From: Gammaproteobacteria bacterium
Lineage (GTDB): Bacteria > Pseudomonadota > Gammaproteobacteria > Pseudomonadales > Pseudohongiellaceae
Reading direction: 5' to 3'
Length of the DNA stretch: 35,783 nt
NCBI GenBank assembly: GCA_029245905.1
Contig: JAQWOJ010000079.1
Location: 1 to 35,783 of the forward strand
Below the pieces are notes generated by a model, which worked only from the letters and a program-made list of their open reading frames with translations, did no database searches and was not told the DNA's origin. Position numbers and translations under genes: made by a program. Shown here piece by piece: positions 32,363 through 35,783 of the stretch; position 1 is the stretch's first letter, and every line of letters begins with the position of its first letter.

Positions 32363-34198
32363 ATGTGTGGAATTGTCGGAGCGATAGCTGAACGAGATGT
32401 ATCTAGAATTTTGCTAGAGGGCCTGAGACGACTTGAGTATCGAGGTTATGACTCCGCTGGAATGGCACTTTTGCCCGCCGCCGGAGGACACCTCAATCAT
32501 CTTAGGACCGTCGGAAAGGTAAACAAGCTCTCCGACTCACTCACGAAATCAAAAATTCAAGGTAGCTTGGGTATTGCCCATACCCGGTGGGCTACACATG
32601 GTAAGCCAAGTGTAAAAAACGCACATCCTCACACGTCCTCTAATGAGGTTGCGATAGTGCACAACGGTATTATCGAAAACTATACGTCTTTGCGTACCGA
32701 CCTCGCTAAGGATGGGTACGCAGCCAAGACCGATACAGATAGTGAAATAATCGCTCATTTAATACACAAGGAAAGAAAAGGCGGGAAAACCTCCTTGCTG
32801 AACGCGGTAAAGAAGTCGGCAAAAAAGCTCCAAGGCGCGTATGGAATTTGCGTAATCGATAAGCTAGAACGAAATGAGGTTATTGTGGCGCGGAGCGGCT
32901 CACCCTTGGTCATCGGACTTGGTCTTGGTGAAAATTTCGTCGCTTCAGATCCCCTTGCTCTGGGTCACGTGACCGACCGCTTTATTTATCTACAGGAAGG
33001 GGATATCGCGAAGGTTTCCAAAAGCCAAGTTGAAATTTGGAACGGACCTATAAAAGTCACTCGGAAAGCTACGACCTTGAAGGCCATCATTGCGGATGCC
33101 GATAAAGGACATTACAAGCACTTTATGCTCAAAGAAATTAACGAGCAAGCCGTAGCAGTCAAAAATACTCTGGACGGTCGAACCACCACCAACAAAATTT
33201 TAGAAGAAGCCTTTGGAGTAAAAGCAAAGCAAATATTTAATAAAGTCCAGAATATTCAAATTGTGGCATGCGGCACTAGTGCTCATGCGGGATTAGTTGC
33301 TAAATATTGGATGGAGACTATCGCAAAGACTACCTGCCAAGTAGATATAGCTAGCGATTATAGATACAGAGATATTATTGTTCGTCCCGGAACTTTGCTT
33401 GTAACGATCTCCCAATCCGGAGAGACCGCTGACACGCTTGCAGCATTGCGCTACGCTAAGAAAAAAGACTATATCGGAAGTCTTGCTATTTGTAATGTGC
33501 CAACTAGTTCCCTTGTTAGGGAGTCGGATTTCTGTATTCTTACAAGAGCGGGACAAGAAATAGGGGTTGCTTCAACTAAAGCGTTTACCACGCAGTTAGT
33601 GTTGCTGTTAGTCCTATCCATCGTGCGTGCTCGAAGGAATGGTTTAACCCGTGGCAAGGAGGCAAAGCTAGTAAAAGATTTACTCAAACTGCCGGAGTTG
33701 ATTGACCGAGCTTTAGGCTTAAACAAAGAAATAAAAAAAGTATCTAAACAATTTTCAAATAAAAATCATTGTCTATTTTTGGGAAGGGGCATTCAGTATC
33801 CGGTAGCGAAAGAGGGTGCGTTAAAGCTAAAAGAAATTTCCTATATTCATGCTGAGGCCTACCCTGCCGGGGAGCTAAAGCATGGCCCCTTAGCTCTGGT
33901 CGATAACAAGATGCCCGTAATAGCAGTCGCCCCAAATAACGACTTGCTAAGCAAACTCCGCGGAAACCTTTCCGAGGTCAGCGCTAGGGGTGGCAAGCTT
34001 TATGTTTTCGCAGATGAAAGCATTAAGTTTGAAAGTGACAAGCGTTGTAAGGTTATAAATGTGCCTAATTGCCCTGAGGCTTTAGCTCCCATTGTTTTTA
34101 CTATACCCCTTCAATTTCTTGCATATCATGTGGCTATTATGAAAGGAACCGATGTGGATCATCCGCGTAATCTAGCTAAATCAGTCACCGTGGAGTAG
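32363..34198 (+). CDS. glmS: Glutamine-fructose-6-phosphate aminotransferase (isomerizing)
   Basis: GlmS makes glucosamine-6-phosphate from fructose-6-phosphate and glutamine. It has 611 residues. M-C-G-I-V-G at the start exposes the N-terminal nucleophilic Cys after Met removal. The glutaminase domain (R-R-L-E-Y-R-G-Y-D-S-A-G; H-T-R-W-A-T-H-G near 73; H-N-G-I-I-E-N) is followed by two SIS sugar-isomerase domains (C-G-T-S near 300; S-Q-S-G-E-T-A-D-T near 350). The C-terminus is R-N-L-A-K-S-V-T-V-E, the conserved sequence whose DNA is the Tn7 target-recognition site in other bacteria. The last codons plus stop recur twice downstream. glmU is 5 nt upstream. Confidence 0.98.
   Translation: MCGIVGAIAERDVSRILLEGLRRLEYRGYDSAGMALLPAAGGHLNHLRTVGKVNKLSDSLTKSKIQGSLGIAHTRWATHGKPSVKNAHPHTSSNEVAIVHNGIIENYTSLRTDLAKDGYAAKTDTDSEIIAHLIHKERKGGKTSLLNAVKKSAKKLQGAYGICVIDKLERNEVIVARSGSPLVIGLGLGENFVASDPLALGHVTDRFIYLQEGDIAKVSKSQVEIWNGPIKVTRKATTLKAIIADADKGHYKHFMLKEINEQAVAVKNTLDGRTTTNKILEEAFGVKAKQIFNKVQNIQIVACGTSAHAGLVAKYWMETIAKTTCQVDIASDYRYRDIIVRPGTLLVTISQSGETADTLAALRYAKKKDYIGSLAICNVPTSSLVRESDFCILTRAGQEIGVASTKAFTTQLVLLLVLSIVRARRNGLTRGKEAKLVKDLLKLPELIDRALGLNKEIKKVSKQFSNKNHCLFLGRGIQYPVAKEGALKLKEISYIHAEAYPAGELKHGPLALVDNKMPVIAVAPNNDLLSKLRGNLSEVSARGGKLYVFADESIKFESDKRCKVINVPNCPEALAPIVFTIPLQFLAYHVAIMKGTDVDHPRNLAKSVTVE
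34181..34198 (+). repeat. glmS 3'-end repeat, copy 0 (within glmS)
   Basis: TCA GTC ACC GTG GAG TAG encodes the last five residues and stop of GlmS. Two more sequences encoding the same five residues and a stop occur at 34862-34879 and 35267-35284, with only synonymous differences and a different stop codon each time. Confidence 0.8.
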
Positions 34199-34217
34199 AA
34201 CATAACAGTTAATTAAC

Positions 34218-34835
34218 ATGGATATATTGTTATCAATTCATATATTAGCTGGAACAATTGCTCTTCTTTGTGCTGCCCTTGCAGTTTCATCTGAGAAAGG
34301 AAAAAAATTCCATGTTCTTTCAGGTAGAACATATTTCTGGTGCATGGTTGGTATTTTCTTAACAGCTATTCCAATGTCAATTATTAACAGCAATACCTTT
34401 TTATTCCTAATAGCAATTTTTTCTTTCTATTTAGCTTTTGCAGGCATGCGTTTTGCTAAAAATAGAAAAGGCATAGCGACGACAATTGATTGGATCGCGG
34501 TTAGTTTAATGATTTTATCGGGATTGGGGATGTGGGCATTGGCTATAACTTACTTCATAAATAACAATTCTCAATACATAACACTTCTCGTTTTTGGATT
34601 TATTGCACTAGCGCTTGGATATGGAGACTATAGAAGTCACAAAAATAAAGCAGCAACAGGAAAAGAGAGAATTGCAAAGCATCTAACCAATATGATGGCT
34701 GGAACCATAGCTGTTATTACTGCTGTTTTAGTCGTCAATGTTAATATTGAACCTATATGGATATGGTGGATATTACCGACGGTGGTGATTACGCCAATCA
34801 TCTCTTACTGGAATAAAAAAACATTGTCACCGTGA
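34218..34835 (+). CDS. Predicted multi-pass membrane protein, DUF2306-like
   Basis: This protein of 205 residues has about seven hydrophobic segments (near 3-24, 36-56, 60-77, 92-113, 119-136, 157-175, 181-197). H8 in I-H-I-L-A-G, H32 in K-F-H-V-L-S-G-R-x-Y-F, and H141/H155 resemble the pattern of DUF2306-type membrane proteins; I am moderately sure of the family and propose no function. ATG 34218 lies 19 nt after glmS and has no Shine-Dalgarno, unlike most genes here. The region is visibly richer in A/T than glmS. Its stop codon overlaps a 9-mer (GTCACCGTG) also found at the glmS 3' end. It appears to be acquired cargo at the glmS insertion site. Confidence 0.75.
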   Translation: MDILLSIHILAGTIALLCAALAVSSEKGKKFHVLSGRTYFWCMVGIFLTAIPMSIINSNTFLFLIAIFSFYLAFAGMRFAKNRKGIATTIDWIAVSLMILSGLGMWALAITYFINNNSQYITLLVFGFIALALGYGDYRSHKNKAATGKERIAKHLTNMMAGTIAVITAVLVVNVNIEPIWIWWILPTVVITPIISYWNKKTLSP

Positions 34836-34842
34836 AAAAGTT

Positions 34843-34895
34843 ATTCACTGTTTCAATACACTCCGTTACTGTCGAGTAAGTTTGAGTGCAGAATT
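34843..34895 (+). repeat. 53-bp direct repeat unit A with glmS 3'-end mimic
   Basis: This unit starts ATTCACTGTT, contains TCC GTT ACT GTC GAG TAA at 34862-34879 (S-V-T-V-E-stop) and ends TGCAGAATT. It matches unit B (35248-35300) without gaps at 39 of 53 positions by hand count. It lies between the two small accessory genes. Confidence 0.85.
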
Positions 34896-34915
34896 AAAAA
34901 TTTTAGAATCATAGA

Positions 34916-35248
34916 ATGAACAAACTCTACTTTCTATTACTTCCTCTAATTATTATTTTTTTTGGTTTGCAAGCACAAAATCAGGAAACATTAATTCTAC
35001 AATGCCCGATGGATGATGTAGGTTTAACCGCAATATATACAATTAACTTTGAAAAAAAATCCGTTGTTCTATCAATGAAAGGTTTTGGTTCATCGCAGTC
35101 TTATTCATTTACCATTAAGGGCAACAAAGTTTATATACCACCCTCTGAATTTGGGGAAGAAATAATCGACCTATCTCTTTATGAGGTTAGCACAAGAGCA
35201 GGTTATGAAAGCGCAAGATGGAAAGTATACAAGTGTTCAAAAATCTAA
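34916..35248 (+). CDS. Small predicted secreted protein of unknown function
   Basis: The product has 110 residues and I do not recognise the family. A Sec signal peptide is likely: short K-containing N-terminus, hydrophobic run L-L-L-P-L-I-I-I-F-F-G, and a probable cleavage after L-Q-A, before Q21. The ending F-G-L-Q-A-Q is common in signal peptides of Bacteroidota. There is no lipobox Cys. The mature part of about 90 residues has two cysteines (C30 in L-Q-C-P and C107 near the C-terminus) that could form a disulfide, and a beta-rich look (alternating polar and hydrophobic residues). No Shine-Dalgarno is seen. It is bracketed by 53-bp repeat units A and B, which suggests a gene cassette. Confidence 0.7.
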   Translation: MNKLYFLLLPLIIIFFGLQAQNQETLILQCPMDDVGLTAIYTINFEKKSVVLSMKGFGSSQSYSFTIKGNKVYIPPSEFGEEIIDLSLYEVSTRAGYESARWKVYKCSKI

Positions 35249-35300
35249 TTCACTGTTCGAACTTAGTCAGTAACGGTAGAATGAATTTGAATGCAGAATT
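35248..35300 (+). repeat. 53-bp direct repeat unit B with glmS 3'-end mimic
   Basis: This unit starts ATTCACTGTT at the last base of the preceding gene's stop codon, contains TCA GTA ACG GTA GAA TGA at 35267-35284 (S-V-T-V-E-stop), and ends TGCAGAATT. As in unit A, the shared TTCACTGTT lies exactly 18 nt before the S-V-T-V-E codons. The nine bases just before those codons differ almost completely between units. Confidence 0.85.
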
Positions 35301-35303
35301 GAT

Positions 35304-35372
35304 ATGAAAACAATACTTTTTATTTGGTTTATCTTCTTTTCCATATTTACATTAACTAACAACAAACACTAG
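35304..35372 (+). pseudogene. 22-codon ORF, probable remnant of a signal-peptide gene
   Basis: ATG 35304 opens a frame of 22 codons encoding a Lys-containing start and a hydrophobic run (I-L-F-I-W-F-I-F-F-S-I-F-T-L-T), then stops at TAG 35370-35372. It stands at the same place behind repeat unit B as the secreted-protein gene behind unit A, and its N-terminus has the same character. I read it as the 5' remnant of another secreted-protein gene, cut off by the junction with the oxygenase gene. It could instead be a true small membrane peptide; the sequence alone cannot decide. Confidence 0.4.
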
Positions 35373-35382
35373 GCCAATCAAA

Positions 35383-35783
35383 ATGCGAAACGACGCGGAA
35401 CTCCTTGATCATATCCTTAACCATATAGATAACAATACAACAGATCTAGGTGATGAAGATTGGTTCGAGCCAGTTGAAAACTATGCTTCACAAACTCGCT
35501 TTGATGCGGAACGGCGCCTTATGCGACGACTTCCGATACCGTTTTGTCCTGTCGCAGCTCTGCCTGAGCTAGGTTCATACGTCGCGCGAAGTTCGGCTGG
35601 CGTACCGATTGTTGTTGTTCGAGACCTGGAAGGCGAGATCCGCGCATTTCGTAATGCCTGCCGTCATCGCGGTATGCAATTGGCGGATGGCGCAGGATGT
35701 ACAAAAATCTTTCGTTGTAATTACCATGGTTGGGCGTACCGACTCGATGGTCGATTAGAGTATGTGCCTCATGAGCATGGTTT
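35383..35783 (+). CDS. Rieske non-heme iron oxygenase large subunit, 5' part (continues past the window)
   Basis: The frame runs from ATG 35383 to the end of the window, 133 full codons. The Rieske 2Fe-2S ligands are C-R-H-R-G-M (Cys-x-His) and C-N-Y-H-G-W (Cys-x2-His), spaced 17 residues apart as in aromatic ring-hydroxylating dioxygenases and related demethylases. P-V-A-A-L-P-E-L-G and I-V-V-V-R-D-L-E-G-E-I-R-A-F-R-N precede the cluster, the usual layout. The catalytic iron domain lies beyond the window, so the substrate class is unknown. Base composition is richer in G/C than the two small genes before it, so it may belong to the chromosome backbone beyond the insertion, or be another acquired gene. 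Confidence 0.88.
   Translation, partial: MRNDAELLDHILNHIDNNTTDLGDEDWFEPVENYASQTRFDAERRLMRRLPIPFCPVAALPELGSYVARSSAGVPIVVVRDLEGEIRAFRNACRHRGMQLADGAGCTKIFRCNYHGWAYRLDGRLEYVPHEHG

Follow-up and report, generated by a model that had tools for sequence, protein, structure and literature searches.

The subject of this work is a stretch of 35,783 nucleotides, here called the window, which is contig JAQWOJ010000079.1 of a gammaproteobacterium of the family Pseudohongiellaceae (assembly GCA_029245905.1), and in particular the DNA behind its glmS gene. We consider it highly probable that this DNA is an array of single-gene cassettes, devoid of an integrase of their own and followed by a cassette remnant, and that they belong to a family of mobile elements whose large serine integrases (LSRs) use the 3' end of glmS as their attB site. 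The grounds are the repeated glmS ends and inverted arms of the array, the common axis of symmetry of many such cassettes, a pair of close relatives with and without an insertion, and the linkage of LSR genes to the same glmS end in distant hosts.

The array behind glmS

The last five codons of glmS with the stop (S-V-T-V-E-stop) occur three times in the window, starting at 34181, 34862 and 35267, with the letters that an earlier, sequence-only reading had given, and the small open reading frames (ORFs) that it had placed 19, 36 and 19 nt past the motifs are indeed found there (34218-34835, 34916-35248 and 35304-35372). These copies are the cores of attachment sites. The same reading had held the motif to be improbable by chance, and this is borne out: the degenerate 18-mer core pattern is matched 3 times in the window and 0 times in 100 dinucleotide-preserving shuffles, while the whole 2.2-Mb genome (85.92% complete) yields 3 matches, all at glmS and none elsewhere, and 0 for the reversed control pattern. 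Copies 2 and 3 are embedded in a longer repeat (61 nt, 72% identical) that exceeds the pentapeptide. The G+C content of the two cassettes is 35% and 33%, as compared to 45% in glmS and 44% in the window upstream of it. Besides the core repeat, the window cassettes are flanked by inverted arms, and the following features were delineated.

32363..34198, + strand: glmS, 611 aa, the host target gene (Pfam SIS and GATase domains; C-terminus LAKSVTVE-stop)
34181..34198, + strand: core 1, the attachment-site core formed by the last 18 nt of glmS and now its functional end; predicted crossover dinucleotide AC at 34187-34188
34199..34215, + strand: left inverted arm of cassette 1, AACATAACAGTTAATTA
34218..34835, + strand: cargo of cassette 1, a 205-aa hydrophobic protein without a Pfam family above the cut-off
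34841..34861, + strand: right inverted arm of cassette 1, TTATTCACTGTTTCAATACAC
34862..34879, + strand: core 2, AC at 34868-34869; under the model, a hybrid of two half-cores
34880..34896, + strand: left arm of cassette 2, GTTTGAGTGCAGAATTA, diverged
34916..35248, + strand: cargo of cassette 2, 110 aa, N-terminus signal-like by eye, without a Pfam family
35246..35266, + strand: right arm of cassette 2, TAATTCACTGTTCGAACTTAG, overlapping the stop codon of the cargo
35267..35284, + strand: core 3, AC at 35273-35274
35285..35372, + strand: remnant of a third cassette as read from the sequence, with a left arm ATTTGAATGCAGAATTG (35285-35301) and a 22-codon ORF (35304-35372)

The remnant has no right end ahead of the Rieske gene, which begins at 35383.

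Cassette anatomy and the place of crossover

In a cassette the core is followed by the left arm, the cargo and the right arm, and some 4 nt separate the last of these from the next core. In the commonest type of arms the left one is TTYANAACAGTGAATTA and the right one is its inverse. This left arm was found within 20 nt past the glmS core at 16 of the 69 glmS loci, as compared with 40 of the 21,495 windows that served as background; the corresponding right arm stands ahead of 14 of the 28 cores downstream. Other self-complementary arms share the same arrays, the second cassette of genome G059 being an example (here and below, G-numbers denote genomes and L-numbers loci). The arms were compared in a set of 33 cassettes, defined by core pairs with at most 1 mismatch, at a distance of 60-9000 nt from each other and downstream of a glmS end that could be read; G072 (L040), whose glmS is on a different contig, was left out of it. 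Arms of one cassette match each other with a mean of 9.62, against 6.32 (sd 0.34; maximum 7.94 in 10,000 permutations) for arms swapped between cassettes, an estimate that is optimistic, as the near-duplicates L087/L088 and window/L035 were retained.

An ungapped search for dyads among 35 axes found 16 of the 33 cassettes reaching a score of 8, and all 16 have the same axis, core position 7.5, which separates A from C in the threonine codon ACN. With shuffled arms this cut was reached 224 times in 6600, and the axes were scattered. A close pair of genomes places the exchange in the same region. In G064 the empty site reads TCAGTTAC-TGTGGAGTAA, and in G123, which is 94% identical to G064 over 800 nt downstream, one finds TCAGTTAC-GGTAGAGTAG, a 192-nt cassette, and then TCGGGTAC-TGTGGAGTAA. 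The 5' half of the first core and the 3' half of the last core of G123 are thus those of the host, the other halves being cassette-derived, so the exchange occurred between core positions 5 and 9, and it is the newer cassette that adjoins glmS. The pair G115/G076 agrees with this, save for one change at position 3. Taken together, the 16 axes and the close pair G123/G064 suggest crossover at A|C of the threonine codon. The sequence-only reading had put it ahead of the S-V-T-V-E codons; with the exchange moved inside the motif, the predicted cassette limits shift to about 34188-34868 for cassette 1 and about 34869-35273 for cassette 2.

Occurrence, empty sites and cargo in relatives

An exact core match is present in 69 of 84 genomes of the genus, and in 17 of the 84 two or three exact cores share a contig and a strand and lie within 3 kb, at spacings of 177 to 2885 nt. 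With one mismatch allowed, a further core within 10 kb was found at 19 of the 69 loci with a readable glmS end, and up to five cores were counted in G067; the 19 include G081, whose second core (S-E-T-V-E; L102) is devoid of arms and could have arisen by chance. A core pair 1429 nt apart, without clear arms, also occurs in G016, which belongs to another genus of the family. The downstream copies in L043 (G089, oriented position 2411) and L102 (G081, oriented position 2289) resemble a longer portion of the glmS end (LAKSVTVE and LAKSETVE, respectively), as if some elements carried more of glmS.

A comparison of relatives at glmS, which the sequence-only reading had proposed as a check, revealed both empty sites and differing small cargo. 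The DNA past the arrays matches the DNA directly past glmS in relatives, namely G115 against G076 and, from an inner core, G123 against G064, and the same holds for G072 and G089 against G082, G101, G094 and G069. In the mapped genomes G082, G069 and G094 a convergent ORF of 285-288 aa begins within 15 nt past glmS and is followed by a FemAB-like gene (a label based on a Pfam run on the G088 homologue only), and the same convergent ORF and FemAB-like pair stand past the last core in G072 and G089. This presence/absence variation, together with the rarity of the motif, supports the earlier proposal that cassettes inserted repeatedly, each restoring glmS and displacing the old end downstream.

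Among 29 cassettes that were read, 27 contain an ORF of at least 30 codons, and in 22 of these 27 the longest ORF has the orientation of glmS. A Pfam analysis of ten cargo proteins recovered GFA (G059), short-chain dehydrogenase (G065), MBOAT (G114), lumazine-binding-like and EamA (both G067) and DUF2306 (G071) families; four of the ten, one of them a 42-aa peptide, gave no Pfam family. Inspection by eye shows GFA again in G120, the dehydrogenase again in G067 and a DUF2306-like protein in G119, and a hydrophobic peptide of 36-42 aa is seen in G065, G072, G083 and G102. Homologues of the protein of window cassette 1, with 87-90% identity, are encoded at glmS in G068 and G055, where the gene is backed by material different from that in the window. 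The protein had no match in phages, a search of viral contigs with the cargo protein gave none either, and PADLOC assigned none of 10 cargo proteins to a family.

Large serine integrases linked to the glmS end

Since the cores vary at every wobble position but share the axis, a serine recombinase was sought. A Resolvase scan of the 84 genus genomes gave matches in 69, including a 551-aa protein of G075 with the Resolvase (PF00239), Recombinase (PF07508) and Zn-ribbon (PF13408) domains, none of which is encoded in the mini-cassettes of the window. A glmS core starts 37 nt past the stop codon of this G075 LSR. The adjoining stretches examined for other LSR-sized proteins of the genus (G058, G090, G108, G126 and G127) contained no core. 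At the level of the order, homologues with E<=1e-15 are present in 12 of 390 genomes, four of which (G075, G175, G267 and G311) have an adjoining core; no core was seen in the stretches examined in the other eight. A scan of the genome_contigs set yielded 22 LSR loci. Twelve of the 14 relatives with at least 28% identity over at least 500 residues have a core 40-170 nt past the match, in L244 and L250 with one change and in L241 with two; the weaker relatives L252-L258 have no core there. The hosts of core-linked LSRs include Seongchinamella, Limnohabitans, Pseudidiomarina, Oxalobacteraceae, SAR116, other Alpha- and Gammaproteobacteria and a Verrucomicrobiota bin. Overall, the core follows the matched gene by 40-177 nt in Gamma-, Beta- and Alphaproteobacteria and Verrucomicrobiota. 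In IMG/VR a core stands behind the LSR at 6 of 52 loci, and the LSR of L268 is directed towards a glmS end of the opposite strand. In L270 the core is followed by what looks by eye like the start of the 42-aa-peptide cassette type. The LSR of L251 matched 42 phage and 15 plasmid records, with identity of at most 28.6% among the matches listed.

The identity of LSRs correlates with the similarity of their right arms (Mantel rho 0.44, reached in 0 of 5000 permutations, 17 LSRs; an optimistic figure, as the near-identical LSRs L240/L270/L272 and L249/L250 were retained; L271, L245, L246, L242, L247 and L268 were left out). The best NCBIfam model for the G075 LSR is staphylococcal CcrB, which it matches over nearly the full length (2.5e-34), with scores of 118.9 bits for CcrB and 59.7 bits for CcrC against cut-offs of 900, whereas the LSR of L251 has no match to an NCBIfam Ccr model.

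Complete elements were found in L248, L250 and L251, with glmS upstream, 5.9-8.4 kb from core to core, and the anatomy of the cassettes; L244 has the same anatomy behind a glmS-like end of 22 codons (59%, E 0.004) but no whole glmS. All four encode a small resolvase, the place of which is taken by a small tyrosine recombinase in G075, L239 and L267, and a replication-protein-like domain is found in L250 (below the cut-off) and L251. The left end of L248 (below the cut-off), L250 and L251 encodes a protein resembling a part of the Recombinase domain. Such small proteins, seen at L251:2465-2656, L248:1497-1700, L250:3829-4188, L267:892-1104, L038 and L086, occur in LSR elements and in some integrase-less ones and are candidates for a directionality factor. 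MORN-like repeat proteins were noticed by eye as cargo of glmS elements at L250:10141-11265 (SAR116) and L267:1165-3567 (a metagenomic contig).

The metagenomic contig L376 (10,388 bp) has a terminal direct repeat of 123 bp, as expected of a circle, and its LSR gene spans the ends. It contains an intact attP with perfect 16-bp arms around GTAA and the glmS core; the attP of L375 also has perfect 16-bp arms. An element of the G067 array retains a C-terminal remnant of an LSR, with 29 of 42 residues identical to the G075 LSR. In G075 itself, contig C6 ends at the core, which is consistent with repeats or mixed populations and is no proof of either.

Several observations weigh against the proposed role of LSRs. 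Half of the downstream cores (14 of 28) lack the right arm of the commonest type and 17 of the 33 cassettes lack a strong dyad, while those of the window itself are below the threshold: cassette 1 scores 7.5 at axis 7.5, slightly under the cut of 8, and cassette 2 has a weak or degraded dyad of 6.5 at axis 8.5. Diverged empty-site pairs (69-78% identity in the flanks) do not show matching half-cores, yet they are uninformative. As to the enzyme, an LSR match is present in 7 of 137 genomes of the family and adjoins a core in G075 only, and L242 and L247, which complete the 14 near relatives, have no core there. No member of this LSR family was found in the window genome (85.92% complete), nor was an LSR with arms of the window type ACAGTGAATTA found; a scan of viral contigs with the window arm pattern gave 5 matches, none of them core-adjoining, and a scan of 369 genomes of the class, run without a positive control, gave no LSR at E<=1e-50. 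Most of the host genomes are, moreover, fragmented assemblies.

Alternative explanations

The array might be a dead relic, deposited long ago, inherited vertically and no longer moving. The imperfect arms of the window, the truncated third cassette and the lack of a detected LSR in the genome would fit this, but species share a cassette with differing neighbours, G123 and G064 differ by a single insertion beside 94% identical flanks, and the arms of several cassettes are near-perfect; we therefore regard a relic as unlikely, though it is the most serious of the alternatives.

It is improbable that a tyrosine integrase moves the window cassettes and that the LSR elements at glmS only share the target. 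Tyrosine recombinases are present in 75 of the 84 genus genomes. Small ones of about 200 aa, encoded by some of the LSR elements and also in the vicinity of some guaA cores, were considered as candidates and rejected, as they are not tied to glmS cores. Exchange by tyrosine recombinases requires some 6-8 bp of identity between the sites, and the cores at glmS differ at every wobble position. The dyad axis, the architecture of the arms and the placement of the crossover agree with the LSR elements. The array genomes G055, G065 and G120 have no PF00589 match, although they are incomplete and even Xer was apparently missed in them.

A chromosomal integron, with IntI moving the cassettes, is considerably less probable still. 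Apart from the integron-like layout of the array, it is favoured by the integron integrase genes that G057, G072, G084, G088 and G090 have past glmS and a FemAB-like gene. However, the arms belong to both ends of a cassette, the exchange is at A|C, and none of the 33 junctions has a RYYYAAC...GTTRRRY pair, which 22 of 3300 shuffles did show (by a simple pattern, not an attC finder). The integrase genes themselves were seen at L051 (G084), L052 (G057), L108 (G088), L109 (G090) and L040 (G072, in pieces); two of the five were checked and both are above the TIGR02249 cut-off, and some members of the genus thus seem to have a chromosomal integron near the glmS locus.

The sequence-only reading had named TnsABCD as a possible enzyme, glmS being the attachment gene of Tn7. 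But Tn7 inserts downstream of the glmS stop without duplicating the coding end, while here strands are exchanged within the coding end and the core is adjoined by LSR genes, so that targeting of the Tn7 type, although no search aimed at TnsABCD or TniQ was made, hardly deserves consideration and an LSR is the likely recombinase. Finally, coincidence or a slippage-type tandem duplication of the glmS end, which has nothing in its favour beyond the repeats themselves, can be dismissed in view of the differing cargo between copies, the arms, the empty sites and the absence of the pattern from 100 shuffles.

Two further candidates for the enzyme were rejected. The IS110/IS1111 transposase (PF02371) is present in 14 of the 84 genomes and, among the 17 array genomes, only in G072. 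A resolvase-domain protein of about 226 aa, considered as a standing recombinase, has its DRLxR motif replaced and is present both with and without arrays; in an alignment of 17 homologous stretches three also lack YxRxS. Many of the 69 genomes of the genus that gave a Resolvase match contain matches of similar size, and in the window genome its gene (L204:3106-3783) adjoins one for an FtsX/MacB-domain (LolC-like) protein. It may represent a domesticated serine recombinase.

A twin array at guaA

Homologues of the cassette 1 protein (73-82%) also adjoin copies of the guaA end (I-E-W-E-stop) in G083, G089 and G059. Tandem exact copies of this end are present in at least 7 of the 84 genus genomes, and tandem T-I-E-W-E-stop copies were seen at L333, L335, L337, L356, L370 and L372 (G083, G059, G089, G123 and G114). 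Many of the copies are preceded by a hairpin-like AAACCC...GGGTTT. The cargo common to the guaA and glmS arrays comprises the cassette 1 family as well as, judging by eye, GFA. Within the guaA core lies the site of GIsul2, GAGTGGGA, as given in PMC9376610. Tyrosine recombinases of about 200 aa lie near guaA cores at L368 (G121), L366 (G129) and L367 (G075), that of G121 ending 164 nt from a degenerate right core, 7.8 kb from the guaA end. Such a protein is a candidate for the enzyme of the guaA arrays.

Comparison with known systems

The closest parallel is provided by the staphylococcal and Enterococcus cassette chromosomes (SCC and ECC), the staphylococcal ones being carriers of methicillin resistance, for which PMC6222049 describes large serine recombinases CcrAB acting at the 3' end of rlmH, att repeats of about 50 bp, inverted repeats in attR and in the circular site, and a circular form. 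An LSR, the 3' end of a conserved gene, att sites of about 50 bp as direct repeats, inverted repeats in the circular site and a circular form are all found in the glmS system too. It differs in the target, in hosts that span Proteobacteria and Verrucomicrobiota, in one-gene cassettes down to about 177 bp, in the small resolvase or small tyrosine recombinase that several elements add, and in the ccrAB/ccrC assignment, as the G075 LSR reaches 119 of the 900 bits for CcrB. By sequence, the G075 LSR is a distant relative of CcrB, and the system is SCC-like and not SCC. Integrase-less pseudo-SCC elements and tandem SCC arrays are known, and the window likewise holds two integrase-less cassettes and a remnant, with an SCC-like mechanism and an integron-like layout.

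Features typical of LSR integrative elements are the Resolvase, Recombinase and Zn-ribbon domains, all present in G075, an attP dyad of about 50 bp with central exchange, seen in 16 of the 33 cassettes and probably having a 2-bp overlap, and insertion at a defined attB that stands empty in some relatives, as was found here. Integrons are defined by IntI and by gene cassettes with attC sites of the consensus RYYYAAC and GTTRRRY. The glmS arrays share with them tandem single-gene cassettes, mostly in one orientation, and, probably, a recombinase acting in trans, and differ in the presumable serine enzyme, the palindromic codon-centred attP, the restoration of an essential gene and the lack of an attC signature. 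As to Tn7, the difference is the exchange inside the glmS coding end and not past the stop.

According to PMC6002521, the PLE (phage-inducible chromosomal island-like element) of Vibrio cholerae is a small anti-phage island which an LSR inserts at a VCR (Vibrio cholerae repeat) of the chromosome, with the integrase and the directionality factor encoded in separate genomes; here, unlike the anti-phage PLE with its VCR target, single-gene cassettes are stacked. GIsul2 and the CR2-sul2 unit, as presented in PMC9376610, insert at the 3' end of guaA with tandem att sites, the CR2-sul2 unit being moved by the integrase of another element. Insertion at a gene end, tandem att sites and, presumably, movement of a unit by a foreign integrase are common to this system and the glmS arrays; the gene of GIsul2 is a different one, guaA.

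Proposed mechanism and its implications

We suppose that a circular cassette bears an attP consisting of two inverted arms around a cassette-borne copy of the five terminal glmS codons and the stop. The LSR would bind the arms and the glmS end and join attP to glmS by exchange at AC, a dinucleotide that is invariant since the threonine codon is ACN. Provided with its own 5' half and the 3' half of the cassette, glmS would encode an unaltered protein, while the 5' half of the cassette and the old 3' half of glmS would form a new core downstream. As only 2 bp of identity would be needed, the cores are free to differ at synonymous sites, and as the cassette supplies the missing codons, glmS keeps its sequence. 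The displaced half-core would permit entry of the next cassette, and repeated insertion would stack the cassettes, mostly in the orientation of glmS and with the newest adjoining it. In this orientation they could be read from the glmS transcript, and their cargo may be of benefit to the host. Consistent with the earlier proposal of a recombinase acting in trans, the window encodes none, and the LSR that moves its cassettes should be supplied in trans.

As a broader, tentative proposal, for which we see somewhat less than an even chance, the glmS arrays and their guaA twin may represent a second integron-like economy of cassettes, based on serine integrases and the 3' ends of essential genes, in which the cargo is expressed from the host gene and exchanged between arrays and species, and the integrases come from visiting small circular elements. 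The earlier view that the system may be undescribed stands in part: searches of the open-access literature brought up no recognised description of glmS-targeting LSR elements or of such arrays, but the principle is already that of SCC and ECC and the system is, to that extent, only partly new.

Integrons are the textbook mechanism for the acquisition of individual genes by bacteria. Should serine integrases capture single genes at glmS as well, this would be an overlooked system of gene capture in environmental bacteria, and a search for duplicated gene ends would then reveal more such systems. An LSR family with a predictable, conserved target in the glmS end and a natural attP of known axis may also be of use in genome engineering. 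More generally, a coding constraint, here the invariant ACN codon, can furnish the overlap of an enzyme across distant hosts.

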